A stretch of DNA of 24,031 nucleotides, from the IMG/VR virus record IMGVR_UViG_3300035698_007726, positions 1-24,031 of that record. The stretch is one strand, 5' to 3'. Below the pieces are notes generated by a model. The model was not told the origin of the DNA and did no database searches. It saw only the letters and a program-made list of their open reading frames with translations. Shown piece by piece: positions 1,410 through 13,192 of the stretch; position 1 is the stretch's first letter; each line of letters starts with the position of its first letter. The position numbers were made by a program, and so were the translations under genes. The stretch is from a virus.

Positions 1410-1716
1410 GTTTTCCCACCCATTCGGCGTGATCGATGGCCTCTGAAACGATGTTGTCAACCAGACCATCGGCATGTTTTTGGGATTGACTGAGGGCTTC
1501 TTTCGCGGCGGATCGGACGGCTTCTCTCAGCGCCACGCCTTCCGCCGCCAGCCATTTGACTCTTTCTTTCAGCGCGGGAACGTCATGGTTTGCGAGGCAA
1601 TCGTTTACGGCATTCAACCGCCAAACCTCGGCAAGCAATCTCAGTGCATCCGCGTTTTCCGCGCACCGCACCTGCATTGCCTCAAGGTCCGCGTGGGTCA
1701 TAGGCTTAGACATCAT
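1402..1716 (-). CDS. Hypothetical helical protein, 104 aa
   Basis: I do not recognise this protein. It is almost entirely predicted helix: two long amphipathic stretches, LEAMQVRCAENADALRLLAE and LKERVKWLAAEGVALREAV, suggest a coiled coil or helical hairpin. It begins with ATGATG; the second ATG (1713) sits at better distance from the GGGGG ribosome binding site, so the true start may be three bases later. Both starts overlap the stop of the Lar-like gene. Many phages carry similar small coiled-coil early proteins of unknown role. Confidence 0.65.
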   Translation of the reverse strand: MMSKPMTHADLEAMQVRCAENADALRLLAEVWRLNAVNDCLANHDVPALKERVKWLAAEGVALREAVRSAAKEALSQSQKHADGLVDNIVSEAIDHAEWVGKHV

Positions 1717-2099: not shown

Positions 2100-2101
2100 T
2101 T

Positions 2102-2242
2102 TCATTCCTCCCACACCCTGCAATTCCAGCACGGGTGAATCGATTGTACATGTTGCATCCGCTCCGTTACGACCCGACAACCGATCACCACGCCAGCGGT
2201 TATGATGGCTAGGGCGATTGCGTAGGCGATGAGGCGTTTCAT
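2102..2242 (-). CDS. 46-aa lipoprotein or membrane-anchored peptide
   Basis: This short gene fills the gap between the Lar-like gene and the preceding gene. It starts with MKR, has a hydrophobic stretch (LIAYAIALAIITAGVVIGC) and a lipobox-like VIGC at residues 19-22, then a short tail that ends with a CWNC pair. The start overlaps the upstream stop as ATGA, the stop overlaps the next ATG (2105) as ATGA, and a GGGAGG site lies 7 bases before the start. These three features make it a likely real gene despite its size. It may be lipidated or simply span the membrane once. A role in membrane takeover, exclusion or lysis control is possible, but nothing in the sequence decides. Confidence 0.65.
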   Translation of the reverse strand: MKRLIAYAIALAIITAGVVIGCRVVTERMQHVQSIHPCWNCRVWEE

Positions 2243-2487
2243 TTGGTGGCCTCCCTTGACCAGCTACGAATAACGTTTGGTGACCAATAGGCATGACCAC
2301 GCGGTTGATGGTCTGGAAGTGGGTATGCCACGTCGGCATCAAGGCGCAGGACTACCGAGCGCCCAACCCTTTTGGCCCATGCTTGTGCGCTCGCAAGGAA
2401 CGCCCACCCCCTGACAGGTGGTAAGATTGCTCCTGTGGCGCAATACCTTTTGAGCTTTGCGGGCGTTGTCGCGTGGTAGAGGATCAC
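2239..2487 (-). CDS. Small protein with ADP-ribosyltransferase-like N-terminus
   Basis: The 82-residue protein begins MILYHATTPAKLKRY, followed by GAILPPVRGWAFLASAQAWAKR and VVLRLDAD. The opening (L)YHAT motif and spacing resemble the first strand of the ADP-ribosyltransferase and RNA 2'-phosphotransferase fold, where a His after an aromatic residue contacts NAD. The protein is too short to hold a full canonical domain, so this is a weak fold inference. Similar small proteins (YHxT...AxAWAKxTGR) occur in phages and bacteria without known function. The start overlaps the stop of the ASCH-like gene as ATGA. Confidence 0.7.
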   Translation of the reverse strand: MILYHATTPAKLKRYCATGAILPPVRGWAFLASAQAWAKRVGRSVVLRLDADVAYPLPDHQPRGHAYWSPNVIRSWSREATK

Positions 2488-3143
2488 GGGCGGGCCTCCT
2501 TAAAACTAATCGCCCACACCCACGGGTTCGCATCCCAGGACTCTGGGCCGGTTGCTCCATAGATTTCGGTCCACATGTGTTTGAATCCGGTCCTGTAATC
2601 ACTCACGGCGGTCGCACCGTGGGGGCCGCTCTCAACTACATCAAAGTGACCGCTTACGCCTTCTACCATCGCGTCCCCTTCCGAAATGTCCTGAATCCTT
2701 TCAGCCCGGACGGATACGATTTTGAGCCAAATACGAGCGGCCCCGGTCGGCATGCAAATGGGGGAAAGGGTGTTTTGCTCCCAACACCAATTAGACATAG
2801 GGAGTGTGGCGTTGTCGTGCTGATAGCCAACCGCGCCAAAGTCGTTATAAAGCCCCTCTTTCACATACAGCAGATCGCCGGGGCCACCGTAAGGGCACTT
2901 AACCGGCATGTCGTTTGTGGTGGTTTCAATGATGTTCCCATGCGGGCCCGGCCACCGGATCGGAAGTTGCGGCAAGTGGTGGCGTGGGCACATTGACTTT
3001 TTGAAGGATTCAACGCACGCCTTCGGTTGTGGTTTCATCAACCGCCGCGTCTGCCCTTTTGTCCCGTCGCCACCGGACCATGGGAGCATCCTTATGAATT
3101 CGGGCTTGAAGAGGATGGGGGTTTCTTTAACTGTTGACATCAT
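2484..3143 (-). CDS. ASCH-domain-like phage protein
   Basis: The pattern ILFKPEFIRML, then GQTRRLMKPQP, PYGGPGDLLYVKEGLYN, IWLKIVSVRAERIQDISE, GDAMVEGV and WDANPWVWAISFK matches a widespread phage family with an ASCH-like fold, a beta-barrel related to PUA that binds nucleic acid or nucleotides. Automated pipelines sometimes label it a morphogenetic protein, but its position here is in the early region, next to the Lar and DUF4406 genes. The 219-residue length is normal for the family. It begins with ATGATG overlapping the upstream stop, so the start could be 3140. A role in RNA or modified-base binding is inferred from fold only. Confidence 0.8.
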   Translation of the reverse strand: MMSTVKETPILFKPEFIRMLPWSGGDGTKGQTRRLMKPQPKACVESFKKSMCPRHHLPQLPIRWPGPHGNIIETTTNDMPVKCPYGGPGDLLYVKEGLYNDFGAVGYQHDNATLPMSNWCWEQNTLSPICMPTGAARIWLKIVSVRAERIQDISEGDAMVEGVSGHFDVVESGPHGATAVSDYRTGFKHMWTEIYGATGPESWDANPWVWAISFKEARP

Positions 3144-3379
3144 TCGCCCGCCTTCTTGATCGCATCCATGGCTTGATCGTAAATCGACTTGCTTTCGTCG
3201 GCGTCGGCCGGATCGCCAGTTTCAAGCCAATGGTCCACGTTGGCACAAAACCGCTGACAGGCTTTCAAGAGGTCCGGGGCGGCGTCTAAAAGCGGTGGTA
3301 GCTTGACGTGAAATGTGACAGCTTCCTTTAGCGGTGTATCACAAAAAGGGCACTTGGCCGTGTGTGCTTTTTCTGACAT
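3140..3379 (-). CDS. Small CPFC-containing hypothetical protein
   Basis: The 79-residue product has one CPFC pair near its N-terminus (residues 10-13), which could be half of a zinc site, then a helical part with PDLLKACQRFCANVDHW. The LLKAC(Q/K)xx helix is very common in small uncharacterised phage proteins. It starts within TAATG at the stop of the preceding gene, with a GGTGGAGGGG ribosome binding site. That same 15-base ribosome-binding segment, including the TAATG, is present word for word in front of the next upstream gene (3595-3609), suggesting local duplication of the translation signal. No function is assigned. Confidence 0.65.
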   Translation of the reverse strand: MSEKAHTAKCPFCDTPLKEAVTFHVKLPPLLDAAPDLLKACQRFCANVDHWLETGDPADADESKSIYDQAMDAIKKAGE

Positions 3380-3597
3380 TACCCCTCCACCGATACTAAG
3401 CTGATATTAATTTTAACGGCGCGGTGTCCGCTGTGTGTGGTTTTCCTGTTTGCGCGCCACAGCGGTTCGCCAAATGCGATCATCGCCTCGCGGCTTGTGG
3501 CCCTGATTGTGTCAAAAAAGATATATTCCTTGCGGCCAGCCGGTGCTATGGCTGCAATCGCCCAGGCCGTCCGACAATCCCTCCGAAGTTTTAACAT
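3379..3597 (-). CDS. Hypothetical basic protein, 72 aa
   Basis: The layout TAWAIAAIAP, then FFDTIRATSREAMIAFGEPLW, then GHRAVKINISL resembles a frequent phage early protein: two strands, a helix starting with TR/SxEAI, and a final strand. It has no known function. The start ATG at 3597 follows the same GGTGGAGGGGTA signal that precedes the gene at 3379. It lies 24 bases after the DUF669 gene and overlaps the next gene by one base (TAATG). Confidence 0.6.
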   Translation of the reverse strand: MLKLRRDCRTAWAIAAIAPAGRKEYIFFDTIRATSREAMIAFGEPLWRANRKTTHSGHRAVKINISLVSVEG

Positions 3598-3621
3598 TAC
3601 CCCTCCACCCCGAAAGTTGTT

Positions 3622-4083
3622 TTAAAACGGTACGTCGCTGTCTTCCCTGTTGTCTGCAACCATCCGATTGATGTAAACGTTGACATAGGGCTTGCCGTTC
3701 TTGTCCTTCTTTTCTGTGGTCTTCTGTTGAACTTCAACGACCACATCGAGGAGGTCGCTCAGGTGGTCGGGAAGGTCGTGTAAAAGCCCGAGGTTCACAC
3801 CACAGCGGCCCAGGTCCGCTTTCAGGTATCCCATGTTCCCTTCGTTAATAAAGTTCGTTTTGAACATCGTGCGGCCCTCGTAGGTGCCGTTTGTGATTTT
3901 CAATTGCCATTTGAGCAGGATGTAGCCCTTGACGTGATCAAGGGATACCTTGTGGATTTTGGCCTGGTAGGTACCATCCGGCACGGGGTCGAAGTCATTT
4001 CCGGGCGGTTTGGAATCAGCGTATTCGTTATCGAAAGCTGCCAAGTCCTCTGCGGTAACCGGGGGGCCGTCGTATTCTGACAT
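3622..4083 (-). CDS. DUF669 protein, likely ssDNA-binding partner of the recombination module
   Basis: I chose the ATG at 4083 (MSEYDGPP) because it follows the upstream stop by one base and has a GGTGGA site; a longer extension overlaps the upstream gene. The core NDFDPVPDGTYQAKI, then LLKWQLKITNGTYEGRTMF, FINEGNMGYLKADL and PYVNVYINRM is typical of DUF669, a phage family usually found beside Sak4-like ATPases and exonucleases. The product is 153 residues long and ends SDVPF, an acidic-hydrophobic tail like the DDIPF tip of SSB proteins that recruits partner proteins. The tip and neighbours together support a single-strand DNA-binding role; this is inference. Confidence 0.85.
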   Translation of the reverse strand: MSEYDGPPVTAEDLAAFDNEYADSKPPGNDFDPVPDGTYQAKIHKVSLDHVKGYILLKWQLKITNGTYEGRTMFKTNFINEGNMGYLKADLGRCGVNLGLLHDLPDHLSDLLDVVVEVQQKTTEKKDKNGKPYVNVYINRMVADNREDSDVPF

Positions 4084-4084
4084 T

Positions 4085-4798
4085 TTATTCCACCTTTTCG
4101 TTTTGATCGTTACTGAGTGCGGCCTTGATTTGTGCAAAGTCCATGGGCAGGACTTCAGGCAACCTACCGGTACGGTCGCCAGCTTCGTAATTCTTGGCAG
4201 GTCTGGTCCTTATCACGCGGCGTTCAACGGGTTGGCCGTTTTCCGTATCGGCTTCGATGTCACAAAAGGCGATCACGTCAACCATGCCAAGGAGGATTTT
4301 GCGGATGCTTTCCGTCAAGGTTGGCGTGGTCTTGACATACTTACCGGTACGGCTTTCCTTTTCCTGTTCTTTGGAGTGGGAGATCATGATAAGGCCGAAG
4401 GGCATGGAGGCAAGCTTGGTAATCACCCGCTGGAATTCGCCGTTCACAAGGGCATATCCCTTGCCGTATGCGAGATCGGATTCGTGTTCGGCCCCGTTCT
4501 TCCCCAGGACATGTTCGGCACACAGCTTGTGCAACATGTCAACAGTATCGATCACGATGGTTTTGTAATCGTGCTTGCCCCCCGCTATAAGGGCGCAGGC
4601 CGCAAGAAATTCGCTCCATGATGCGATGGGTACCTGGAACACCTCCAGGCTGTTAAGGCCCGCCTCAGTGGCCAGGAATAGGGCATTGTCGGCTTGGCTG
4701 GCGAGGGTTGACTTGCCGATCTTTGGCGGTCCGTAAATCAACCATGTCAGTGCGCCTATTTCCTGCTTGGCTGGCGTTTTTGTCGTCGGTAATTCCAT
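4085..4798 (-). CDS. Sak4-like RecA-fold ATPase (single-strand annealing family)
   Basis: The 237-residue protein carries a Walker A motif GPPKIGKST (residues 23-31) and a Walker B strand IVIDTVD (81-87), followed by a conserved GLIMISHSKE segment (sensor-like). This arrangement matches the AAA_24/Sak4 group of minimal RecA-like phage ATPases, which help anneal or pair single strands during phage recombination. It sits directly between a PD-(D/E)XK nuclease gene and a DUF669 gene, the usual grouping. An AGGAGGGG site overlaps the stop codon of the nuclease gene (4811), indicating coupled translation. The assignment to Sak4 rather than another RecA-fold ATPase rests on length and context. Confidence 0.85.
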   Translation of the reverse strand: MELPTTKTPAKQEIGALTWLIYGPPKIGKSTLASQADNALFLATEAGLNSLEVFQVPIASWSEFLAACALIAGGKHDYKTIVIDTVDMLHKLCAEHVLGKNGAEHESDLAYGKGYALVNGEFQRVITKLASMPFGLIMISHSKEQEKESRTGKYVKTTPTLTESIRKILLGMVDVIAFCDIEADTENGQPVERRVIRTRPAKNYEAGDRTGRLPEVLPMDFAQIKAALSNDQNEKVE

Positions 4799-4810
4799 TT
4801 AGATCCCCTC

Positions 4811-5725
4811 CTAAAATACCGCGTTCGGTGTTGGCTTCAATTCGCTATTTGCGGGCCGGTGTTCATAGAAATTATCCAGGATGTTTTGATCATTATTGGA
4901 CCGGCACAGTGCGAAGTATGGGCAGGGCCGAAAATAATCAAAGCATCGGTCTGTGTTTCGAGTCCATGTGTCGGTACGGTATGCCTCCAGAAGGTGTTGG
5001 GTGGTTTCCCATAAGTCCTGCATTGTGGCCTTGCGGTCGTCATCGGACAAGATGACCATTTCGCGGTGGTAGTTTTCGGGGTTTGAATAGATATCATCCA
5101 TCCTGGTTTCAAACTCCGCGTCGGTTTCATTCTTTTTCGGCTTTATTCGCGCCTTGCGAATGATGTTGTACATGGCCCGGTTGACATGCGCTTTGAATAA
5201 ATGGGAAAGCGCCACAGCGTAAAGGTTTAACTGGGAATCCAGTGGAAGTTTTTCAATGATGTCACCCGTTATTTCGGCGGCGGTCTTGTGGTCAATGATA
5301 AAGATTCCGCCACTATCAAGGCCAACCAGGTCAACCTTTCCAGATAATTCGAAAGACCTGGAAAGCCGACCTGTTATTTTTGGGTTGCGGATCGGAACCG
5401 TAAAGCTGCCCTCGATTGCCAGAATCCTAAAGGGCTCCTTGCGGTATCGGGCCTGATAGCCATCCAGCATCGCCGCCGCCATCGTCTTGTTTTTGAAACC
5501 ATCGCGCCCAGGAAAGGCTTTGTTTATCAGGGCGCTAATTTCGCCGCCCCCATCCTTCCCGTGGTAGATCATTTCAAGCCCCCTGTGGATCACCTGCCCG
5601 AAAAAAAGCTTGTTATCATCCCGCCCCACCGGGACAAGCTGTCGCACGTTTCGCCAGTAGAAGTTACGAGGGCAGTTTTTGAAGGTCTTTGCGGCGGAGT
5701 AGGTGATCGTCCTTTTTGCCATCAT
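4811..5725 (-). CDS. PD-(D/E)XK exonuclease, Cas4/RecB type with probable Fe-S cluster
   Basis: The protein has YSAAKTFKNCPRNF at the N-terminus (Cys18), a helix with QVIHRGLE (His47), GKVDLVGLD (Asp132), IFIIDHKTA (Asp145, Lys147) and DSQLNLYA (Gln165), which together make the complete motif set of a RecB/Cas4-like nuclease. Three cysteines near the C-terminus (Cys261, 268, 274) with Cys18 fit the 4Fe-4S cluster that closes the fold in Cas4 and AddB. Such phage enzymes resect DNA ends so that an annealing protein can act, and the Sak4-like ATPase gene follows 12 bases downstream. It starts with ATGATG at the stop of the upstream gene, so 5722 is an alternative start. Confidence 0.9.
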   Translation of the reverse strand: MMAKRTITYSAAKTFKNCPRNFYWRNVRQLVPVGRDDNKLFFGQVIHRGLEMIYHGKDGGGEISALINKAFPGRDGFKNKTMAAAMLDGYQARYRKEPFRILAIEGSFTVPIRNPKITGRLSRSFELSGKVDLVGLDSGGIFIIDHKTAAEITGDIIEKLPLDSQLNLYAVALSHLFKAHVNRAMYNIIRKARIKPKKNETDAEFETRMDDIYSNPENYHREMVILSDDDRKATMQDLWETTQHLLEAYRTDTWTRNTDRCFDYFRPCPYFALCRSNNDQNILDNFYEHRPANSELKPTPNAVF

Positions 5726-5997
5726 TCCCCCCCGGTCTCATCTGGACAAACGGCTTCGGGCTCACGTTGTTCCTGACAGTAGGCGTCGAATGTCATGAAC
5801 CCGATTGCTTCGGCTACGCTTGCCGGAAGGTAGCCAGGGTCGTCTTCGATGATCAGGTCTGCCACGAGGTCGCGTGCTTCTTGTGTTGCCATGGCTGCGC
5901 TAACGACCAGGCCAACCCAATCATCATACAGCCCCCCATCGTCTTCCTGGCGTGCTTCGGCGTCGGCTCGTAATTGTTCGGAGTTTTCGGCGTTCAT
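5722..5997 (-). CDS. Hypothetical acidic protein, 91 aa
   Basis: I do not recognise this family. It is strongly acidic (EARQEDDGGLYDDW, IIEDDPGYL, ending PDETGGE) and mostly helical. There is no membrane segment. It overlaps both neighbours as ATGA-type junctions, so it belongs to the operon that makes the nuclease. A DNA-mimic or partner-protein role would fit its charge, but there is no direct evidence. Confidence 0.65.
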   Translation of the reverse strand: MNAENSEQLRADAEARQEDDGGLYDDWVGLVVSAAMATQEARDLVADLIIEDDPGYLPASVAEAIGFMTFDAYCQEQREPEAVCPDETGGE

Positions 5998-6245
5998 TTG
6001 GTGGCCTCTTCATGCGGGGCGTCAACGATCTCGATGTCATACTTGGATGCTTCGAGTTCGGATCGCTGGACAAAGACCGGAAATTTGGTGGGATACTCGC
6101 TGTATTTCTTGCCGTGAATGTCGAGCGCCACGGTTCCGGCACGCTTCGTTTTCCACCCGGTCTGGTCCCACTGGCCCTTGGAGGCATTGGTCAAAAAGAC
6201 TTCGCCAGCCTTTTTCTCGGGATGGTTCCGGTCCTGAATTGCCAT
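5994..6245 (-). CDS. Hypothetical protein, 83 aa
   Basis: The protein starts MAIQDRNHPEKKAGEVFLTN and continues with WKTKRAGTVALDIHGKKY, FPVFVQRSELEA and an acidic end. The GEVFLTN strand and alternating pattern suggest a small beta-rich domain. I cannot name a family with known function. A very strong AAAGGAGGGG site lies 4 bases before the ATG at 6245. Its end overlaps the next start as ATGA. Confidence 0.65.
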   Translation of the reverse strand: MAIQDRNHPEKKAGEVFLTNASKGQWDQTGWKTKRAGTVALDIHGKKYSEYPTKFPVFVQRSELEASKYDIEIVDAPHEEATK

Positions 6246-6283
6246 GGTCCCCTCCTTTGGGTTGTCGATAATGGTTCGGCCTA

Positions 6284-6814
6284 TTAATCGTGCGGATCAA
6301 ACCGTCCGCCGCAAACCGACCGGTCCATGTTGCATCCCTCACAGGGGTCTTTGCCCTCCCTTGACAAAATGAATACCAGCGTTTTGTCAAGGGTGCATCC
6401 GGGCGGAACGATGCCGGGTTCCGTAAGGACCTCGCCAAACCTTTCACGAATCCGGTCGGCGTCTTTTTTTGTATCCACCGGCCCATCCTTTTCGCTTGGC
6501 GGCTGGTCGGATTCGGGCTGGCCAACCGCTTCCTTGACAGCCGCAACCGCCGCGCCCTGGCCGTTGTCCCGATCATAAAGCCACGTTTCGATCTCATCAC
6601 CGGAAAAGTCCACCTTCATCACGCGGCCTTCGAGATAGTCAAAGTACTGGGATCGGATGAGGGTGTCGGCGGCCTCTTCTGTGGTCATCGTGTGGCCCGG
6701 CTGGTGCTGTAGGAGGCCCATCCCCTGCGACTGTGCCCTGTTGAACAGCGCGGCCAGCACTACCGGTGCCGGTGCAACGATGTCGCCGATCTTAATGGTT
6801 CCGTCCTCTTTCAT
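6284..6814 (-). CDS. Conserved phage protein with C-terminal cysteine motif, 176 aa
   Basis: The segment SQGMGLLQHQPGHTMTTEEA, then YFDYLEGRVMKVDFSGDEI and LYDRDNGQGAA belongs to a family seen in many phages, often near early or replication genes, without an assigned activity; residues 25-105 hold this domain. The rest is a charged linker (PSEKDGPVDTKKDAD) and a C-terminal part with four cysteines ending in CEGCNMDRSVCGGRF, which looks like a zinc or metal site. This second part may be a fusion. The gene holds an exact 12-base inverted repeat at 6358-6393. AAGGAGGG precedes the ATG at 6814. Confidence 0.7.
   Translation of the reverse strand: MKEDGTIKIGDIVAPAPVVLAALFNRAQSQGMGLLQHQPGHTMTTEEAADTLIRSQYFDYLEGRVMKVDFSGDEIETWLYDRDNGQGAAVAAVKEAVGQPESDQPPSEKDGPVDTKKDADRIRERFGEVLTEPGIVPPGCTLDKTLVFILSREGKDPCEGCNMDRSVCGGRFDPHD
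6358..6393. repeat. Exact 12-base inverted repeat inside a gene
   Basis: CCCTTGACAAAA at 6358-6369 and TTTTGTCAAGGG at 6382-6393 are perfect complements around a 12-base spacer. The element lies in the coding sequence for the C-terminal part of the 176-residue protein. It could form an mRNA hairpin or act as a protein-binding or recombination site. Each arm contains a TTGACA hexamer, but neither strand shows a good -10 box 17 bases away, so I do not call it a promoter. Confidence 0.8.
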
Positions 6815-6844
6815 CTCATTCCCTCCTTAGTGTTTCAAAACGGC

Positions 6845-7129
6845 CTATTCGCCGGGCCTGTCGGGTTTGGTGTCGGTCGTGTTGGTGGTTTCAACGGGGG
6901 TGTCGTCGTCGGTTGCGACGGGGGCGGAAACTGTGGCTGCGTAGGTGTCGGCAAGCTCCCGGAGCGTTCCCAGCGTTCTGGCATCCCCACCGCTAAGGAA
7001 CAGCCTAAAGCGGACCTCGGGGTTTTCCGCGTCGGTCCCGTGGAGCGACATTCCGCCGTGATCGTGCTTCAAAAACAGCAGCGGCGGGAACCCGTTCTCT
7101 TTTACTGAAAATACAAGGCTTGTGTTCAT
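6845..7129 (-). CDS. Hypothetical protein with acidic Thr-rich tail, 94 aa
   Basis: Residues 1-65 read as a small folded domain (LVFSVKENGFPPLLFLKHD, then EVRFRLFLSGGDARTLGTL). Residues 70-94 form a low-complexity tail rich in D, T and P that is probably disordered. I do not recognise a function. An AAAAGGAGGGG site lies right before the start, and the gene is the first one downstream of the 640-base non-coding RNA region, so its translation may be influenced by RNA folding there. Confidence 0.65.
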   Translation of the reverse strand: MNTSLVFSVKENGFPPLLFLKHDHGGMSLHGTDAENPEVRFRLFLSGGDARTLGTLRELADTYAATVSAPVATDDDTPVETTNTTDTKPDRPGE

Positions 7130-7157
7130 TTCGTCCCCTCCTTTTGGTTTGGCGGCT

Positions 7158-7183
7158 GGCCGGTTATCATCCGGCCGGTTATC
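7158..7183 (-). repeat. 11-base direct repeat in the last RNA domain
   Basis: The bases GGCCGGTTATC occur at 7158-7168 and again at 7173-7183, separated by four bases. They lie inside the last domain, just before the ribosome binding site of the gene starting at 7129. They may form alternative pairings or a duplicated protein-binding site. Confidence 0.7.
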
Positions 7184-7231
7184 TTGCTCCCGCGCGTCGG
7201 GTCGCAGCCGCCCTTGCCCCGTTGGGGCATT

Positions 7232-7251
7232 CGGTTCGTGTTTTGAAAGAG
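7232..7251 (-). promoter_or_regulatory. boxA-like motif, copy 3
   Basis: The minus strand reads CTCTTTCAAAACACGAACCG, preceded by TAGGTAG much as copy 1 is preceded by TAGATAG. A hairpin with a six-base stem (7215-7229) follows three bases later, the relative order of boxA and boxB in lambda-type nut sites. Confidence 0.5.
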
Positions 7252-7364
7252 CTACCTAGCGGCGGTTGGCCGGATTATCTACCGACCGAGTTGGCACAAG
7301 CGCGGAATTATGTGCATGGTTAGGGCCGCGATCCCTCCCGTGCGCGAAAACGGGCGCAACCGCC

Positions 7365-7382
7365 GTTCGGTTTTCAAAAGAG
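7365..7382 (-). promoter_or_regulatory. boxA-like motif, copy 2
   Basis: The minus strand reads CTCTTTTGAAAACCGAAC, directly after the tRNA-like domain and before the next closed domain. It shares the CTCTTTnnAAAAC...GAA pattern with the other two copies. Confidence 0.5.
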
Positions 7383-7501
7383 ACGACTGCCCGGAGTCGA
7401 ACCGGGATACATGGGTCAGTTGGCGATCAACCAACCGTAGCGCCCATGCGTCCTCACCACGGGAACCGCGCGCGCGGCCCCGACGTCTAGACGACAATCG
7501 C
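7382..7501 (-). ncRNA. tRNA-like domain with canonical T-arm and enlarged arms
   Basis: The minus strand contains CCCGG-TTCGACT-CCGGG, an exact T-stem and T-loop of tRNA type. Seven following bases (CAGTCGT) can pair with GCGATTG at 7501-7495, using two G-U pairs, as an acceptor stem. TCGTCTAGA after the 5' strand and GAGGAC later resemble a tRNA D-arm, but a GC-rich hairpin (around CCGCGCGCGCGG) is inserted in the D-loop position. A CATGGG/CCCATG stem encloses a second hairpin (GTTGG, 7-base loop, CCAAC) where the anticodon loop should be. The total is 120 bases, too long for a normal tRNA. It is a degenerate tRNA or a tRNA mimic; I cannot assign an anticodon. Confidence 0.45.
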
Positions 7502-7505
7502 CATA

Positions 7506-7520
7506 TTCAGTTTTAAAGAG
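7506..7520 (-). promoter_or_regulatory. boxA-like motif, copy 1
   Basis: On the minus strand this reads CTCTTTAAAACTGAA, preceded by GTAGATAG. It closely resembles the boxA antitermination element of bacterial rRNA operons (GCTCTTTAACA or TTCTTTGAAAACTGAA). It lies directly between the pseudoknot-order domain and the tRNA-like domain. Binding of NusB/S10 is inferred only. Confidence 0.5.
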
Positions 7521-7531
7521 CTATCTACTTA

Positions 7532-7644
7532 CAGCCGGGCCTGGGAGGACGGCCGCAACCAACGGGTTTTACAATGGTTCCAAGCAACGCTTTTACAAAG
7601 GGTTCTTGATCGATTCGGCCCGGCTGAATCCTGGCCGTCCTCCC
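7532..7644 (-). ncRNA. RNA domain with interlocked (pseudoknot-order) helices
   Basis: On the minus strand a 12-bp perfect helix closes the domain (7633-7644 with 7543-7554). Inside it, a hairpin has a 5-bp stem (7626-7630 with 7612-7616) and a nine-base loop (7617-7625). That loop is fully complementary to bases just 3' of the closing helix (within 7532-7541; ten complementary bases counting the edge of the stem). The order of arms is A-B-A'-B', the topology of a pseudoknot, or else of two mutually exclusive folds. The rest of the interior is filled by two imperfect 25-base tandem repeats (7605-7581 and 7580-7556). Confidence 0.6.
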
Positions 7645-7662
7645 TGCCAACGGTGTCAGGGC

Positions 7663-7685
7663 GGGGCCTATGAGTAATAGGCCCC
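7663..7685 (-). other. Perfect 9-bp RNA hairpin
   Basis: GGGGCCTAT and ATAGGCCCC flank a five-base loop with no mismatch. No U-run follows on either strand, so it does not look like an intrinsic terminator. It probably forms a stable stem in the non-coding RNA. Confidence 0.75.
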
Positions 7686-7770
7686 ACGCTCGCAACGCGG
7701 GTTGTGGTGTGCAATAAGGCCAACAGGGTAGGTCTTTGGTTTGGCAGTGTTGGCCGGTGGGTAGTCATTG

Positions 7771-7983
7771 TTATGCGGTCCTCAGGCTTTTGGCAATCTC
7801 TTCGATCACGGTCCTGTCAAACCGGGCTTGTCCACCCGGAGTCCGATATGTAACCGGGATGAGCCCGCTCCATACGTGATTCCGAACCGTGTCACCCGAT
7901 ACGCCCAAAAGCTTTGCGGCTTCACCGGTTCCGATGAATCGCTTCACTTTCGCCGATTCCGTTTGTTTCGTGTGTTTCTTCAT
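7771..7983 (-). CDS. Small helix-turn-helix protein, excisionase/MerR-like
   Basis: The segment IGTGEAAKLLGVSGDTVRNHVWSGLIP, then TYRTPGGQARFD is the classic helix-turn-helix of the excisionase/MerR type (HTH_17), with the TPGGxxRF turn before the wing. I chose the ATG at 7983 (MKKHTKQ) because GGAAGG lies 7 bases upstream; a start at 8013 has no ribosome binding site. At 70 residues the protein is DNA-binding only. It is the last gene before the non-coding RNA region and the second of two adjacent small helix-turn-helix genes. It may be a phage transcription regulator or a directionality factor; no integrase is in view. Confidence 0.85.
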   Translation of the reverse strand: MKKHTKQTESAKVKRFIGTGEAAKLLGVSGDTVRNHVWSGLIPVTYRTPGGQARFDRTVIEEIAKSLRTA

Positions 7984-8046
7984 TTGCCAACCTTCCCACC
8001 TTTTGATTTGCATGTCAAGAAAAAAGATTGACGAAAAGCATTATTT

Positions 8047-8289
8047 TTATTCCTCAACAGTATCGGTAGCTTGGAGCTTACGCTTTGGCCCGAACCTGCC
8101 ACGAGATTCGACGCGGTACCGTTCTACCTCTGCAAGCGTAACGACCCGGATGGGACCGATCCATGAGGTTTTGAGGCGTGGGGGGCGCGGCCTTCCGTCG
8201 CGTGTTGGGCGGGCTTGTTTTTGGAGATTGCTTGGAGAAACGCCAAGGAGCTTGGCGGCGGCGGATAGGGTGATCGGGTCATCCATCAT
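8047..8289 (-). CDS. Small helix-turn-helix protein
   Basis: The pattern ITLSAAAKLLGVSPSNLQKQ, then PRLKTSWIGPIRVVTLAEVERYR is that of a DNA-binding protein with an N-terminal helix-turn-helix and a basic middle (RPTRDGRPRPPR). The ATG at 8289 overlaps the upstream stop; a second ATG follows at once at 8286 and a TTG start at 8301 is possible. The family is similar to, but different in sequence from, the helix-turn-helix gene next to it. A regulatory role in the early operon is inferred. Confidence 0.8.
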   Translation of the reverse strand: MMDDPITLSAAAKLLGVSPSNLQKQARPTRDGRPRPPRLKTSWIGPIRVVTLAEVERYRVESRGRFGPKRKLQATDTVEE

Positions 8290-8528
8290 GTGACCACCCA
8301 ACCTTTCTTCAGCCTACGACCCTGGCCCCTTGCTGCTATTGCGAGGATTTCAAAAACCGTAAAGCGGTCATTGTGCCAGCTCCAAACAAGGTCGGTGTCC
8401 TTGTCATACCCATCGAATCCGTATGCTAAAAGCCAGCGGTCGCCTGTGGTTTCTCCCGATACGTTGCTCTGGTAATCGAAGGCCCATCCGGTTTTACAGC
8501 GCTTTCCGCTAGTGCTTCTGGCCTCCAT
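8286..8528 (-). CDS. Hypothetical protein, 80 aa
   Basis: I do not recognise the family. It contains WAFDYQSNVSGETTGDRWLLAYGFDGYD and WSWHNDRFTVFEILAIAARG, a beta-rich aromatic first half and a helical, basic end (GRRLKKGWVVT). GGAGG lies 8 bases before the ATG at 8528. The stop overlaps the start of the helix-turn-helix gene, so both are translated together. Confidence 0.6.
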   Translation of the reverse strand: MEARSTSGKRCKTGWAFDYQSNVSGETTGDRWLLAYGFDGYDKDTDLVWSWHNDRFTVFEILAIAARGQGRRLKKGWVVT

Positions 8529-8531
8529 CTG

Positions 8532-8720
8532 TCAATCCTCCTTGTCCGCTTTGTGGCATTCGGGGCAAAGAATATCTTCGTCAATTTCCACCCCGCAACC
8601 GTCACAAATGATCCGGTCACAGTATGAGCAGACGCAACCGCCAAGGCCAAAAATGGTAGCCCCACAAGCCGCGCACTTGGCCACCTTGGCGGGCATGTCA
8701 GCATTGAGTTTGATGGTCAT
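8532..8720 (-). CDS. Small cysteine-rich zinc-binding protein, 62 aa
   Basis: Nine cysteines in 62 residues are arranged mostly as CxxC pairs: CAAC (16-19), CVC and C (29-34), CDGC (39-42) and CPEC (52-55). This is enough for two zinc sites of the ribbon or treble-clef type. Such small early phage proteins may bind nucleic acid or host RNA polymerase, but no function can be read from the sequence. The gene starts three bases after the upstream stop; the GGAGG site lies within the end of the upstream coding sequence. Confidence 0.75.
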   Translation of the reverse strand: MTIKLNADMPAKVAKCAACGATIFGLGGCVCSYCDRIICDGCGVEIDEDILCPECHKADKED

Positions 8721-8723
8721 TGT

Positions 8724-8990
8724 TCAATCCTCCGGAATCGAAACGAACCGGCCAACCGTGCTGCCCCACTCGCGAATATCGCTGGTCATGTCCTCGTAAT
8801 CGGGCGGCACCTCTTCCCACAACGGAACATTCACACCCCAAAGCTCTACCTCGTCACCCGTATTGGCGTCGGGTTCGCGTAGGTCCCGGAAGTTGTCGTC
8901 AAGGATACATCCCACTGCAACGCCGTCCGTAAGCCGCCTGTATAGTGTGCCGCCGTGCCCGAATGTGCCGTGAATTCTTTCGAGTCCCAT
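8724..8990 (-). CDS. Hypothetical protein, 88 aa
   Basis: I chose the ATG at 8990 (MGLERIHG) because AGGAGGGG lies 5 bases before it. The protein is acidic with no known motif: FGHGGTLYRRLTDG, then DDNFRDLREPDA, ELWGVNVPLWEEVPPDYEDM and FVSIPED. The leader contains the 18-base repeat also found in front of the next upstream gene. The function is unknown. Confidence 0.65.
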   Translation of the reverse strand: MGLERIHGTFGHGGTLYRRLTDGVAVGCILDDNFRDLREPDANTGDEVELWGVNVPLWEEVPPDYEDMTSDIREWGSTVGRFVSIPED

Positions 8991-9012
8991 TTCATCCCCT
9001 CCTATTTGGTCT

Positions 9013-9030
9013 GTTGTGTTGTTTGATTCC
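9013..9030 (-). repeat. 18-base direct repeat in leader, copy 1
   Basis: The minus strand reads GGAATCAAACAACACAAC, identical over 18 bases to 9306-9323. It sits a short distance before the ribosome binding site of the gene starting at 8990. It is C/A-rich and probably unstructured, like translation-enhancing leaders. Confidence 0.8.
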
Positions 9031-9031
9031 G

Positions 9032-9283
9032 CTATGCGTAAAGCGTCCACATGAACGAATCCGCAACTGGCTGGTGTCCGCGTCGAATCAGCAGATCAAT
9101 TGCACAAACCGATATTTTCACGGCCTCTGCTGCCTCCCGCGAAAGCCCGCTCCCGGTGTGAAATAGGCACCTGTTTTTTGCGTCCACAAAACGATACTTC
9201 AGCGCCAACTCAACAACGCCCCCAGATACGCGCTCAACGTCATCGATTGTAAGCTGGATGCCGCAAGTTTTAATGTCTGCCAT
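9032..9283 (-). CDS. First gene of the early operon, hypothetical, 83 aa
   Basis: I chose the ATG at 9283 (MADIKTCG) because an AAGGGAGA site lies 7 bases upstream. The protein has ITIDDVERVSGG-like pieces (LTIDDVERVSGGVV), then LKYRFVDAKNRCLFHTG and LSREAAEAVKISVCAIDLLI, suggesting a small alpha/beta domain of unknown function. A longer form starting at ATG 9325 is possible: that ATG coincides with the predicted transcription start of the promoter at 9332-9360, so it would be a leaderless message. Confidence 0.65.
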   Translation of the reverse strand: MADIKTCGIQLTIDDVERVSGGVVELALKYRFVDAKNRCLFHTGSGLSREAAEAVKISVCAIDLLIRRGHQPVADSFMWTLYA

Positions 9284-9305
9284 TTTGGATTCTCCCTTTG
9301 TGCCC

Positions 9306-9323
9306 GTTGTGTTGTTTGATTCC
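9306..9323 (-). repeat. 18-base direct repeat in leader, copy 2
   Basis: This is identical to 9013-9030. It starts within the first few bases of the transcript expected from the promoter at 9332-9360 and lies before the ribosome binding site of the gene starting at 9283. Confidence 0.8.
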
Positions 9324-9331
9324 ATGACCCT

Positions 9332-9360
9332 ATTGTGCCGCATACCAGGAACAATGTCAA
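9332..9360 (-). promoter_or_regulatory. Sigma70 promoter of the early operon
   Basis: The minus strand has TTGACA (9360-9355), a 17-base spacer and CACAAT (9337-9332). Upstream of it is an A/T-rich stretch with two GATAAAA-like runs on the plus strand that could act as an UP element. Transcription should start near 9325 and run leftward into the early genes. Confidence 0.8.
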
Positions 9361-9420
9361 GATAAAAGCGCACCAAAAGATAAAAAATAATCGCTTGGAA
9401 TATCGGGGGGTTGGGGGCAT

Positions 9421-9437
9421 GGGTTCCAATAGAACCC
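9421..9437. repeat. Inverted repeat upstream of early promoter
   Basis: GGGTTC and GAACCC flank a five-base spacer. It lies about 60 bases upstream of the -35 box of the early promoter and could be a regulator site or a small hairpin. Confidence 0.5.
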
Positions 9438-9465
9438 AAATAAAACCCAAACATTAGGGGTGGCG

Positions 9466-9490
9466 AACTTGTAAGGATTGCTTACAAGTT
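9466..9490. promoter_or_regulatory. Perfect 10-base palindromic arms, possible operator
   Basis: AACTTGTAAG and CTTACAAGTT are exact inverted arms around GATTG. The lack of a U-run on either strand argues against a terminator. A dimeric regulator site is likely, given its place between two promoters; the binding protein is unknown. Confidence 0.6.
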
Positions 9491-9596
9491 GGGCTTGCCG
9501 TTTTCAATAACAGCAACTAGCTTTCCTGGTTAATGCTCGGGTTTGTGGCAAGTAAAGGAAAACCGCCGATTTGCTAGGCTGGCTCGGCGGCAAGCA

Positions 9597-9629
9597 GAAG
9601 AAAAGGCCAAGAGGGTTTTCCCCTTGGCC
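9597..9629 (-). terminator. Intrinsic terminator at end of the late operon
   Basis: The minus strand folds GGCCAAGGGG-AAAA-CCCTCTTGGCC with one bulged base, followed by TTTTCTTCT. It lies about 110 bases after the stop of the phosphoesterase gene and would end leftward late transcription before the early promoter. It also lies about 45 bases downstream of the start of the promoter at 9678-9706. Confidence 0.7.
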
Positions 9630-9677
9630 CCTTCTGGGAATAAAGGATCTGCATCTAGATCCCCTAAGTATGAAGCC

Positions 9678-9706
9678 TTATTACCACCCCTGCCCAGAAA
9701 TGTCAA
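9678..9706 (-). promoter_or_regulatory. Second near-consensus leftward promoter
   Basis: The minus strand has TTGACA (9706-9701), exactly 17 bases and TAATAA (9683-9678). The start should be near 9671. The transcript would carry a small GGATCT/AGATCC hairpin (9647-9664 region) and then meet the terminator-like hairpin, giving an RNA of about 70 bases unless termination is overridden. Confidence 0.7.
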
Positions 9707-9737
9707 CGTAAAACATTGGGGCGGGGGTTAGGTGGCA

Positions 9738-10775
9738 TCACAGCCCGAAGTCAGTCCGATCCATCATCCGAACTTCGATCTTGTGTCGGTCTGGAAAAAA
9801 TCGCAGGACCGGAACGCCAAAAGCGAACGCTACGCCCTGCTTTTCCAAGAACGGGTCGGACTTTTTAAACGTCCCGGTTACCACGTCGGCATATCCACAC
9901 CCACGATGAATCCAATATTGAGCAGCGGGCTTGTGAAGGTGGGCAGACATGACAAAGTGGATCGGCTCGCCAGCATCCTCACGGGCTCGCCTGTGACCAT
10001 TCCAGCGATTCAGGCGGGTTGACCCGGGCAAGTGATGATTGCAAATCCCCTCGTATTTTTGGTCCCCAACTTCCAACGTCAATCGCACACTGTTGAAGCA
10101 GACCGGTACCAAGCTACCGACCGAATGTGCAAAGGTCATATGGCCGCGTTTGAAATTGCGCGCCTCATGGTTTCCGTCGTTATACAAGACGCATTTACCG
10201 GCGGGCTCCCACATGCCGTCAAGGTTCTTGACCCATTCATGGCCATCCCCTCCACCGGCAAGCTCTTCCAGGTGGTACCGGGCAAGCCTTTCCTGATGAT
10301 GTGGCGGGATAACTTGGTCAAACACGGTCCCGGCACTTGGAAAGGACGGTGGGGTGTTTTCGATCAAGTCGCCACCCTTGCGACAGTACCTCTGGTCATC
10401 TGCCATGATCCAAGCGTTTACCGCTTCGAATAGGTCATAATCGACGCCATAAAAACCGAGATGTTCATCGGCCACGTCGGCAAGGTCTACCGGTTTGTCT
10501 GTGTCAATCCTGAAGTGGACGTGTGGGTTATATGGATTCATCGCGTCGGCTATTCTGCCGCCCTCTTTCGCGTGGGCAACCAAGCGGGCCGCAATGGCGC
10601 TATCGCTGCGATCTGTGGCGGGGGCGGTATACTTCGCCCCGGATATTTCGATCCATTTCATGAGGGTTGTGTGGTGAATCCCGAATTCCCGAGCTACGGC
10701 CCGAAGTTCGCCGGTTTCGGTGAATCTCGCAACGGCCTTGGCTTTGAATGCGTCGTCATACACGGGCGCGCCCAT
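9738..10775 (-). CDS. Metallophosphoesterase with N-terminal helix-turn-helix
   Basis: Residues 1-45 (YDDAFKAKAVARFTETGELR, then AREFGIHHTTLMKWI) form a transposase-type helix-turn-helix. The rest is a calcineurin-like phosphoesterase: DEH (103-105), GDLIEN (135-140), GNHE (201-204), the histidines in CNHHLPG (247-248) and SAHLHKP (His279, His281) supply the usual two-metal site. Phages use such enzymes as phosphatases or nucleases, and a DNA-binding head suggests action on DNA. It is the last gene of the late operon, one base overlapping the holin candidate (TAATG). The substrate is unknown. The joining of the two domains is read directly from one open frame. Confidence 0.85.
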   Translation of the reverse strand: MGAPVYDDAFKAKAVARFTETGELRAVAREFGIHHTTLMKWIEISGAKYTAPATDRSDSAIAARLVAHAKEGGRIADAMNPYNPHVHFRIDTDKPVDLADVADEHLGFYGVDYDLFEAVNAWIMADDQRYCRKGGDLIENTPPSFPSAGTVFDQVIPPHHQERLARYHLEELAGGGDGHEWVKNLDGMWEPAGKCVLYNDGNHEARNFKRGHMTFAHSVGSLVPVCFNSVRLTLEVGDQKYEGICNHHLPGSTRLNRWNGHRRAREDAGEPIHFVMSAHLHKPAAQYWIHRGCGYADVVTGTFKKSDPFLEKQGVAFAFGVPVLRFFPDRHKIEVRMMDRTDFGL

Positions 10776-11047
10776 TAATTCATATCCTGGTTGGATTCGT
10801 GAGGCGGTCGAACTATCTCGACGGCTTCTGAAATAAGACTTGCCGCGTGCTTGGCCACAATCTCTTGCACCTTCGTTTGTTCTTTGGCCCGATCAACCAA
10901 CGCCTGTGCGATCAAGTAGGCGACGGCAAGGGCTGTAACCATGACGCCCTTGGCCAGCGGTGGGATGGGCAGGGTCAACAGGATGGCCATGGCAGTACCA
11001 AAAGCGCCCATCTTCTTACTCAGGAGCCCTGAAAGCTTGTCACCCAT
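10775..11047 (-). CDS. Holin candidate with two membrane segments
   Basis: The 90-residue protein has a short N-terminus, two hydrophobic segments (about residues 15-31 and 33-52, joined by PIPPLAKG-like residues), and a charged helical C-terminus (DRAKEQTKVQEI). This is the build of a small class II-type holin or an LydA-like membrane protein. It is located about 6.5 kb away from the endolysin gene, which is unusual, so holin function is an inference from size and topology only. AAAGGA lies 8 bases before the ATG. Confidence 0.6.
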   Translation of the reverse strand: MGDKLSGLLSKKMGAFGTAMAILLTLPIPPLAKGVMVTALAVAYLIAQALVDRAKEQTKVQEIVAKHAASLISEAVEIVRPPHESNQDMN

Positions 11048-11123
11048 GTCGGCGGTCCTTTCTTCTAAGATCGTGGCTCACATCGGAACACAGGGCCACA
11101 AACTATCACACTTTTCTTTTTTC

Positions 11124-11152
11124 TGTTACTTTTTTATGAAAAGGGGTATAAT
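11124..11152 (+). promoter_or_regulatory. Plus-strand promoter of the lipoprotein gene
   Basis: A perfect TATAAT lies at 11147-11152 in an A/T-rich stretch, with a poor -35 match (TGTTAC at about 17 bases). Transcription would begin near 11159, just ahead of the AGGAGG ribosome binding site at 11161-11166. Confidence 0.65.
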
Positions 11153-11174
11153 CTCGAAATAGGAGGTGTTGAAA

Positions 11175-11480
11175 ATGAAGAGTCTACTTTGGATCGTACC
11201 GGTGCTGCTTATCCTCTTGACCGTCGCGTGCGGGGAAGATGACATGGGGGATTCGCCGGGCTCGGTTGGGAACTGTGGGGCTGTTGAGTATTGCGAGATG
11301 GCAACCCTTTGTTTTTTTCACGAAACCGGGGATGAGGAATACGGCAAAGAGGCCTACATATCATCATGCCTTGAATATGTGGACGGGGGGTCTGTTCGTT
11401 GCGGCTGTGAGTGTATGTTACAAGGCATGGACTGCGGTTTTTACCGAGAATGCTTAGGTGATTGCCAGGGCGAACTCTAG
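11175..11480 (+). CDS. Cysteine-rich lipoprotein on the opposite strand (moron)
   Basis: The 101-residue protein begins MKSLLWIVPVLLILLTVAC: a charged start, hydrophobic core and lipobox TVAC with Cys19 as the lipidation site, followed by an acidic GEDD. The mature part has ten further cysteines, an even number that suggests disulphide bonds outside the cytoplasm (for example VRCGCEC, FYRECLGDC). An AGGAGG site sits 8 bases before the ATG at 11175; a GTG at 11166 lies on the ribosome binding site and is not a credible start. It is the only plus-strand gene here, has its own promoter and is inserted between two late genes. Known phage lipoproteins with this layout (Cor, Llp) block superinfection; such a role is inferred. 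Confidence 0.8.
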   Translation: MKSLLWIVPVLLILLTVACGEDDMGDSPGSVGNCGAVEYCEMATLCFFHETGDEEYGKEAYISSCLEYVDGGSVRCGCECMLQGMDCGFYRECLGDCQGEL

Positions 11481-13192
11481 CCAACCTGTCGAATCTTAAC
11501 CGCCGCGTCTCCGGTCATGAAATCCACCGAATGCTCGTATATTTGACCCTTGATCGTGCTGTCTCCTGTTGGGAATATCGGGTTGTTTGAATGTGTCGTG
11601 ACGACCTGCCCAACGTGGGCATCCATAAGGCGGCGTGATTTAAATTCGTGGGTGTCCCCGTATTCTGACAGGATCGAATAAATATTTGCAGACAGCAGGT
11701 CGGCGGTCGTTTGGTCATATATCCAAAGGTTTTCTTGAATATGAAAGTCCTTTGTCAGCGCGCCCTCTTGGTTTAGTTCGTGAAAATAGTTGCCGTCGTT
11801 TTCGTACACCGGCTTTTTGTCCACGTCATCAATGTAGTATGGGATGTCGTGATAATCCCAGAAATAATGAAGGCGCTTTATTATTTCCTCGTTGAATCCA
11901 CCTTTGCGCTTTGAGCTGTTCGCCCGAATATCTTTCGGGTAAATATCATAATCTGCGCTGAAAATTTCGGTGTAGTATCGCGGCGATATGCCAATGCAAT
12001 ATTTTCCACGGTGCATGTATGTGTAGAGTCCAAGCTCAACAGAAAGCTCTTGCAGCCAATCGGCAAGCGATTTTTGCTCGCGCATCCACCGTTGGCCCTT
12101 GATGGCATAGCTGTTAAAAACCGATAGCGCGGTCGAGTAGGTTGTGATGTCTACATCTCCGGCGGGCACGTCAGCAAAATAGAAAAGAAGATAGAGCCAT
12201 ATTTCGGCGGGGTTTGTAATCGTTTGGCCAAGCCCGTCTTGCGTTCCTTCTGGCGGGAAATCCCCAAAGAAAAACTTATCACCGCGCTCCCACAGCGTCC
12301 CGCCACCCCCGTCGCCCCAGTGCGAATTATAGCCATCAAAGGTGGCGTTAGCGGAATCTATATTTGTTATCTGGTAGTCGTCTAGGTGTGCGCCGTCGCG
12401 CATGTGCCATATGGTTGATTTTGCGGTCGGCGAATCAAACGGGTAGGGCCCCAAGATTCCGTTCGGCCCCGGATCGCAAAGCTTGAAAGAAAAGTTGTCT
12501 AGGCCAATGTTGTCCGTCATCACACACGGGACTTCGATCATTCCCGAATCTTCGCCACCTGGAGGGTTGTTTAATATGGGCCAATCTTTACAGAAAACAA
12601 TCGGTATTGGCCTGCCCTCAAGGTCCGGGTCAAGGTCTGGATAGTCTGCTACAGAGAAAAACTCATTAGGAAATCGCATTTTGTCCGATTGCATTTCTGC
12701 AATAGGATGGATCGTAATTTCATTGTTTTTCCACTCTACCCCGGACGGGTCAACCATTCCGGCAAAGTATAAGTCCGTCGTTTGAACAGGGCTCGTGCCT
12801 CTGCCTATCAGCCAAAGCGAACACCACACCTCCCACCCGGTAGCCGCGCCATATTCCTTATCCTCAAGGTCATCAAGGAAGTCTGTAAACTCGCTTCGAC
12901 CGTAGTCCCTCGCTATGGTAATACCGACCTCTGGAAAAACTACCTTCGGTTGTCTTTCGCTTCCTATGGAGTTCCGAAGCGGCGTTATGTTTGTGATGTT
13001 TCCCGGATAGTGACCCTGCATCGGGATGGCAACTGTTTTTAGCGTCCAATCGGCCGCCCACCCCTGGAAAACGCCACTGCGAAGGGAAAACCGATGCCAC
13101 ACCGAAACAGCCGGGCCAGATGTCTGCAAAAATGCAAATACGGCAAGCACATCAAAACTAACTGACCTGTCGGTCCAGGTAGGCTGCGACAT
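11477..13192 (-). CDS. Tail hub-like structural protein, 571 aa
   Basis: The sequence has the flavour of a siphovirus tail-tip protein: beta-rich, with IHPIAEMQSDKMRFPNEFF, then DYPDLDPDLEGRPIPIVF, the last piece like the (G/E)(R/K)PIPIVYG segment in phage tail hub proteins. A later helical part, SLADWLQELSVELGLYTYMH, followed by GKYCIGI is also typical. It follows the 1207-residue tail-tip gene with AAAGGGGG before the ATG. It probably helps form the baseplate or carries the tail tip. Its stop codon overlaps the last bases of the convergent lipoprotein gene. I cannot give a gene symbol. Confidence 0.65.
   Translation of the reverse strand: MSQPTWTDRSVSFDVLAVFAFLQTSGPAVSVWHRFSLRSGVFQGWAADWTLKTVAIPMQGHYPGNITNITPLRNSIGSERQPKVVFPEVGITIARDYGRSEFTDFLDDLEDKEYGAATGWEVWCSLWLIGRGTSPVQTTDLYFAGMVDPSGVEWKNNEITIHPIAEMQSDKMRFPNEFFSVADYPDLDPDLEGRPIPIVFCKDWPILNNPPGGEDSGMIEVPCVMTDNIGLDNFSFKLCDPGPNGILGPYPFDSPTAKSTIWHMRDGAHLDDYQITNIDSANATFDGYNSHWGDGGGGTLWERGDKFFFGDFPPEGTQDGLGQTITNPAEIWLYLLFYFADVPAGDVDITTYSTALSVFNSYAIKGQRWMREQKSLADWLQELSVELGLYTYMHRGKYCIGISPRYYTEIFSADYDIYPKDIRANSSKRKGGFNEEIIKRLHYFWDYHDIPYYIDDVDKKPVYENDGNYFHELNQEGALTKDFHIQENLWIYDQTTADLLSANIYSILSEYGDTHEFKSRRLMDAHVGQVVTTHSNNPIFPTGDSTIKGQIYEHSVDFMTGDAAVKIRQVG

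Follow-up and report, generated by a model that had tools for sequence, protein, structure and literature searches.

Introduction

Known phage antitermination routes are nut (boxA-boxB-N), put, which is RNA only, and Q. The put stem-loops bind the beta' zinc-binding domain. In HK022, put measures about 70 nt, folds into two stem-loops and needs no dedicated protein factor (PMC9378689). Several nut sites per phage are known, as in mEp021 with its three (PMC11893012). For rRNA operons, PMC10250234 discusses a model in which the leader strand is held in place by the boxA-NusB complex up to the emergence of the trailer. The published boxA consensus GYTCTTTAANA (PMC5725501) is gammaproteobacterial and may not be that of the host of the phage described here.

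We analyzed a 24,031-base IMG/VR phage record at its full length (the window). The minus strand of positions 7130-7768, about 640-641 nt, had been described preliminarily as a structured noncoding array of closed domains in series, in the sense of the operon, and our analysis confirmed this. The array resembles several described systems in part. As in the rrn leader, boxA stands just before the 5' strand of a closing helix. In E. coli rrnB it precedes a leader-trailer helix of 26 pairs (G.U allowed) by 1 nt; the gaps are 8, 7 and 29 nt in the window and 2 nt in a second phage (L180, of which 15 kb were read as L184). The rrnB spacer also holds a tRNA before boxA. In contrast to the rrn leader, the array contains no rRNA, has domains of approximately 60-120 nt and several boxA motifs in tandem, belongs to a phage early operon, and one of its gaps (boxA3 to U4) is as long as 29 nt. 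The array shares with lambda nut a boxA near early regulatory genes, but has multi-branched domains where nut has a single small hairpin. Like HK022 putRNA, it is proposed to be a folded early nascent RNA that alters polymerase. GOLLD and ROOL, which often lie close to tRNA islands (PMC12286853), are likewise large, structured RNAs of phages and comparable in length, whereas the array consists of tandem separate small domains inside an operon, without an ARAGORN tRNA or a covariance-model match.

Results

A noncoding gap in the early operon

All window genes with family matches are carried by the minus strand. The genes next to the array are listed below.

8047-8301: HTH/excisionase-like regulator of the early cluster, upstream of the array
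7771-8013, minus strand: HTH_17 or excisionase-like regulator, directly upstream gene (family search, PHROG/Pfam)
6845-7129, minus strand: directly downstream gene, 94 aa, without PHROG or Pfam family

Past 6845-7129 the operon continues with small genes, followed by a PD-(D/E)XK exonuclease, a Sak4-like annealing protein and an SSB-like protein. Family searches of the upstream proteins revealed none that resembles N; N proteins diverge fast.

Neighbouring intergenic gaps measure 30-38 nt, compared with about 640 nt at 7130-7768. The early operon had been said to have almost no other intergenic space. The array gap is indeed far longer than its neighbours, but there is a second gap of 283 nt at 9455-9737. 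Within it, on the minus strand, a promoter-like TTGACA-17-TAATAA (9706-9678) precedes a leader of 218 nt, 9455-9672, that is very structured (z -5.8, 0/200 shuffles). In sliding windows, the most negative runs of z-scores on this strand were the 9455-9706 region and one near 21.5 kb. Terminator-like hairpins were seen by eye in 9455-9706, and no boxA. We consider this region a second candidate nascent-RNA control element.

Codon log-odds were negative for all six frames of 7130-7768 and positive for 27/27 minus-strand genes that we chose, each left out of training. Two ORFs within the gap gave no PHROG match at E<=0.1. We rejected a hidden gene on these results; the gap looks noncoding.

Closed domains in series

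All arms of the four closed domains that had been described were present when read on the minus strand, and so was the 9-bp hairpin at 7663-7685, as 7685-7677/7671-7663. The domains are as follows.

7663-7685, minus strand: hairpin U0, 9 bp, loop of 5, mean pair probability 0.99
7543-7644, minus strand: domain U1, 12-bp perfect closing helix 7644-7633/7554-7543
7532-7626, minus strand: putative H-type pseudoknot of U1, 10-bp perfect helix 7626-7617/7541-7532, -22.5 kcal/mol
7382-7502, minus strand: domain U2, closing helix 7502-7495/7389-7382
7260-7365, minus strand: closed domain U3, 9-bp helix 7365-7357/7268-7260 and stacked 5-bp arm 7286-7269
7151-7212, minus strand: closed domain U4, 8-bp helix 7212-7205/7158-7151 and stacked 5-bp arm 7175-7159

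The U2 arm 7501-7495/7389-7383 has 7 bp, two of them G.U, and becomes 8 bp when 7502/7382 is added. The 10-bp helix of U1 crosses the closing helix, which would allow an H-type pseudoknot or a switch; nested folding gives this 10-bp helix a probability of 0. A 32-nt stretch at 7132-7163, which covers the end of U4 on its 3' side and a Shine-Dalgarno-like sequence, is 84% identical to 6479-6510, which lies within a gene (E 1.6e-4).

We counted how many helices could be fitted in series, with 8 bp as the minimum length and -12 kcal/mol as the energy ceiling. The array chains five such helices, a number reached by 1/400 dinucleotide shuffles and by none of 70 other minus-strand stretches of the record, where the longest chain was three. 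A looser, general helix-chain detector found many chains in GC-rich loci and did not single out the array. Neither did 120-nt sliding windows (mean z -0.65 in the array, -0.15 elsewhere). The 641-nt minus strand folded with z -3.35 (20 shuffles) and the plus strand with z -3.41. The two strands fold equally well, so folding energy does not choose between them. Single domains had modest z-scores (U1 -2.1, U2 -1.8, U3 -1.4, U4 -3.3).

The closure probability of U1 was 1.00 in all three folded pieces that contained it. That of U3 was 0.79 in 7130-7768 and 0.22, 0.10 and 0.03 in shorter pieces, that of U4 was 0.82, 0.43 or 0.20 depending on the piece folded, and that of U2 was 0.00, 0.11, 0.07 and 0.04, reaching 0.99 only when U2 was folded alone. 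The predicted closure of U2-U4 is therefore one that varies with the amount of flanking RNA folded; a co-transcriptional path would favour local folds.

boxA motifs in the linkers

The linkers of the array carry motifs that resemble the boxA consensus.

7506-7521, minus strand: boxA1, GCTCTTTAAAA, perfect consensus match at 7521-7511, then CTGAA; the U2 closing helix begins 8 nt on
7366-7382, minus strand: boxA2, CTCTTTTGAAAACCGAA, diverged, 3 mismatches to the consensus (7383-7373), 7 nt before the U3 helix
7235-7252, minus strand: boxA3, GCTCTTTCAAAACACGAA, 1 mismatch in the first 11 bases (7252-7242), 29 nt before the U4 helix

Read in operon sense, the linkers are CTCTTTAAAACTGAA before U2, CTCTTTTGAAAACCGAA before U3 and CTCTTTCAAAACACGAA before U4. 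A small hairpin lies between boxA3 and the U4 closing helix, and U1 is without boxA.

On the minus strand, sites with at most one mismatch to the gammaproteobacterial consensus occupy 2/629 positions of the array and 1/23,392 elsewhere; the array holds the sole perfect site, and of the two sites with one mismatch it holds one. Counted on both strands and in any place, such sites are not above chance (4 against 1.9 expected; 10/100 shuffles reach 4). The motif CTCTTT N0-2 AAAAC N1-2 GAA, which was drawn from the array sites themselves, occurs three times in the window, always in the array and in operon sense, and 0/100 shuffles reach three. In the full fold, the unpaired probability was 0.29 for boxA2 and 0.34 for boxA3; taking slightly broader limits gave 0.64 for boxA3.

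Together, the last hairpin of U2 and the T-rich start of boxA2 score as a terminator-like site (7399-7384, sense strand). Sites of this kind in 6500-11300 numbered 5 against 6.5 expected by chance. A weak promoter-like site (9 of 12) lies at 7796-7767 on the sense strand, where 4 such sites were found and 2.5 expected. Downstream on the sense strand there are two terminator-like sites, weak and at chance number; any antitermination effect would therefore have to be on Rho.

Ends of U2-U4 resemble the top half of a tRNA

U2, U3 and U4 share a common end, namely an 8-bp closing helix with a 5-bp arm (loop of 7-8 nt) on its 3' strand and no spacer. This stacked end resembles the acceptor and T arms of tRNA. 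The strands of the closing helices are GGCGATTG/CAGTCGTC in U2, GGCGGTTG/CAACCGCC in U3 and GGCGGCTG/CAGCCGCC in U4. A descriptor of the tRNA top half, loosened in the version reported here to admit the short span of U4, found exactly U2, U3 and U4 on the sense strand of the array; three were reached by 1/3000 shuffles and 0/277 other stretches. The first descriptor (40-nt minimum span, 8-bp helices) found two units, reached by 30/2000 shuffles and 7/140 other stretches; with 7-bp helices two units were reached by 151/2000 shuffles and 17/140 other stretches.

In the alignment of U2-U4, 39/39 cells were paired, with three compensatory pairs, a result reached by 36/500 shuffles. This covariation is that of three paralogues in a hand-chosen register; no homologue was found, and hence no cross-genome covariation.

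U2 is the sole object in the window that combines a cloverleaf topology with a canonical T-arm (one reached by 6/600 whole-window shuffles). Its arms are given below.

7492-7489/7453-7450, minus strand: D-stem of U2
7448-7443/7415-7410, minus strand: long anticodon-like arm of U2
7406-7390, minus strand: T-arm of U2, loop TTCGACT

Topology and T-arm are as in bacterial tRNA and tmRNA. Unlike in these, the D and anticodon arms of U2 are oversized and its closing helix is not followed by CCA; there was also no RF00005 or tmRNA match. U3 and U4 are without a canonical T-loop. The tRNA model RF00005 gave no match at E<=10 and was detected in the control in 14/14 genomes. ARAGORN at default settings called no tRNA or tmRNA in the window; forced tRNA and tmRNA calls appeared only when the threshold was lowered to 50-70%. 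Membership of the tRNA or tmRNA families, which the preliminary description had raised, is thus not supported by Rfam or by ARAGORN.

Searches for relatives and known families

Rfam gave no match in the whole window at gathering score. The only matches of 7050-7850 at E<=10 were MIR845_1 (E 9.9) and Pseudomon-groES (E 6.6), both at chance level. The covariance models of GOLLD and ROOL, which the preliminary description had raised as possible families, were not matched in either search.

By blastn against 50,697 phage and 72,556 plasmid records, the region gave only chance matches of 28-45 nt. No homologue of the array was found in IMG/VR by scans with the HTH protein, the exonuclease, Sak4 and the tail protein, or in species genomes scanned with the tail protein and the phosphoesterase. 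By tblastn against phage records, the window proteins matched at less than 60% identity only (exonuclease in 118 records, Sak4 in 377, 2484-3143 in 332, 6284-6814 in 3), and 11477-13192 and 21221-22609 gave no match. The protein of 6284-6814 has no PHROG or Pfam match; approximately residues 19-93 (6539-6757, minus strand) are conserved in 30 IMG/VR loci with GC of 0.27-0.71. These loci were rejected as relatives, as 34 window proteins gave by tblastn one other match, HTH in L132 (E 1.5e-5, 45 residues).

A boxA-pair pattern returned at least 120 stretches in IMG/VR; after scripted ranking of the loci, no array was seen in the sequence of L098 or L020. A pattern of T-arm plus boxA returned 27 stretches, of which 17 overlap an ARAGORN tRNA, so a boxA motif can follow ordinary tRNAs. 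In the available part of the literature outside most subscription papers, we recognised no phage boxA array with tandem closed domains.

Other elements were seen on large phage contigs. On a 66-kb contig (L161, 8628-8714, minus strand) a noncanonical tRNA-like element with an 8-bp closing helix is followed by ACTCTTTAACAAAAC; it scored 20.4 bits with the tRNA-Sec model, below the cut-off of 47. A 437-kb contig (L171) has CRISPR-like repeats, read by eye on the minus strand, with GCTCTTTAAAAC beside the last repeat. A 340-kb contig (L177) carries 38 tRNA genes in about 11.5 kb, 807-12306 (ARAGORN).

A second phage with a like layout

A search of IMG/VR for boxA plus GGCG gave three stretches. 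L181 and L182 are one coding region found twice, and the third is L180. By a rough uniform estimate, a pattern this short should give more than 10 chance hits in IMG/VR; therefore the hit in L180 means little alone, and the weight lies in its place and its tandem domains.

The order in L180 is a cI-like repressor, a divergent promoter-like site (read by eye, just before the array boxA), boxA GCTCTTTGAAAACTGAA, three domains and a cro-like HTH gene with a weak PHROG match (E 8.3e-4). The cro-like gene is followed by two more, one HTH and excisionase-like and one CII-like, and an integrase lies on the opposite flank. The site at the start of the array is the only boxA with at most one mismatch to the gammaproteobacterial consensus on the operon-sense strand of the 15 kb.

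The three domains stand in tandem and have closing helices of 13, 9 and 14 bp. Three helices of at most -18 kcal/mol were reached by 0/400 shuffles, and three in series at -12 kcal/mol by 11/400. The MFE of the array had z -5.0 (60 shuffles). The domains covary mutually: 10/33 pairs have two-sided changes, which was reached by 2/500 shuffles, and at most three such changes were seen in the control in which the partner was slid.

At E<=10 a covariance model of these domains (R1) had no hit in the window, and thus the two arrays share a layout and not a family. Among 59 further loci that were searched together with L184, R1 gave a single match (L152, E 0.041), which we took as chance. By blastn against phage, E. 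coli and plasmid records, the L180 array gave only short chance matches, and the 4.3-kb stretch around it gave none. Rfam had no match above chance for this array.

Discussion

The boxA motifs and the tRNA-like top halves were absent from the preliminary description, and they change the likely meaning of the array. What we read from the sequence is a noncoding stretch with the arms of closed domains, motifs like boxA that have the sense of the operon and lie in register with the domains, and a second phage of like layout. A boxA followed by closed domains beside early regulators is a layout that an antitermination leader requires and that rRNA operons show, and of the readings weighed here loading of the Nus complex is therefore the likeliest. 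We propose, tentatively, that the array is a nascent RNA which, in the manner of an rRNA operon, may load the Nus complex of the host.

On this proposal, the minus strand of 7130-7768 would be transcribed as an untranslated RNA within the early operon. During its transcription, NusB/S10 would bind the boxA motifs and a host Nus antitermination complex would be loaded, as at rRNA operons. Polymerase would thereby withstand Rho throughout the 640 untranslated nucleotides and on into the recombination genes that follow. The complex may also keep the 5' strand of each closing helix close to the RNA exit channel until the 3' strand pairs, as was proposed for pre-rRNA. The array would then be a phage analogue of the rRNA-operon leader, where lambda uses nut and HK022 uses put. 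We infer these steps (transcription, binding of NusB, Rho resistance and boxA-assisted closure) from the layout.

Several observations argue against loading of the Nus complex. The terminator-like site after U2 (7399-7384) is the opposite of what antitermination asks for. The motifs are uneven: boxA2 has its three mismatches, boxA3 is remote from the U4 helix and U1 has no boxA. Their count on both strands is at chance level, and the consensus may not be that of the host. In the full fold boxA2 and boxA3 are unpaired with probabilities of 0.29 and 0.34, and the closure of U2-U4 depends on the piece folded. The covariation among U2-U4 is reached by shuffles at the rate given above, the tRNA-top descriptor was tuned, and an array homologue that could offer cross-genome covariation was not found. 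The second phage has one boxA as against three in the window, and its domains are unrelated to those of the window by covariance model.

The main rival, which we hold to be possible though rather unlikely, is that the array is a trans-acting noncoding RNA and that boxA merely shields a long untranslated transcription from Rho. The domains would be excised, the tRNA-like ends by RNase P and the long helices by RNase III, and would act as stable RNAs, for example as decoys for a host defence that targets tRNA or other RNA. Tandem noncoding domains with tRNA-like top halves are consistent with this, as is the fact that rRNA, which boxA serves, is itself an untranslated product (PMC10250234). The phage contig L161, with its noncanonical tRNA-like element directly before ACTCTTTAACAAAAC, and the weak promoter-like and terminator-like sites on the sense strand of the array point the same way; however, sites of both kinds occur at chance number. 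The array also lies inside an operon, only U2 has a canonical T-loop, and the target is a putative one.

An improbable reading is that of a decayed phage tRNA cluster, in which U2-U4 would be degenerate tRNA genes and the linkers the spacers between them. The canonical T-arm and full cloverleaf topology of U2 would fit such an origin, and so would the overlap of T-arm plus motif stretches with ARAGORN tRNAs. Against it, neither RF00005 nor ARAGORN recognises a tRNA under the settings given above, and U1 is not tRNA-like. Decay should break pairs, but compensatory changes keep the closing helices while U3 and U4 lose the signature bases of tRNA.

We find it quite improbable that the array is an RNA-only antiterminator of the HK022 put kind, with folded domains that bind RNA polymerase directly and a boxA resemblance of secondary importance. 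The array adjoins early regulators, the L180 array starts at a boxA right after the promoter-like site read by eye, and the window contains a second very structured leader after a promoter-like site (9455-9672). The put RNA is a folded nascent RNA that needs no protein factor (PMC9378689), but compared by description its two stem-loops in about 70 nt stand against 640 nt of multi-branched domains here.

A type III toxin-antitoxin RNA was considered from the layout; a PADLOC scan of 10 nearby proteins gave only mad1 and MTase_II matches, both from the HTH protein. An RNA anti-CRISPR is hardly credible and was rejected on strand: two 17-nt plus-strand copies, 88% alike, around GTTTTGAAAGAGCTACC and GTTTTAAAGAGCTATC may resemble a Cas9-type CRISPR repeat, but such mimicry needs the strand opposite to the neighbouring genes, and the operon-sense letters are boxA-like in 3/3 copies.

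Returning to the loading of the Nus complex, its wider form is that phages carry unrecognised mimics of the rRNA operon in their early operons, in which boxA would load the Nus complex and drive the co-transcriptional closure of tandem, fast-evolving domains. We regard this generalization as unlikely on present evidence. In such mimics the grammar of boxA plus closed domains would be kept and the domain sequences would not, and searches by homology or covariance would therefore miss the class.

In summary, the array may be an undescribed way to control transcription. If Nus loading is true, the combination of rRNA-type boxA and closed domains, lacking a recognised N, would add a separate route of antitermination. 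The assistance that boxA tethering may give to the closure of a distant helix, which is hard to test on rRNA, would become testable on a domain of 100 nt. If the domains act in trans instead, they would represent a novel type of noncoding phage RNA bearing tRNA-like ends.
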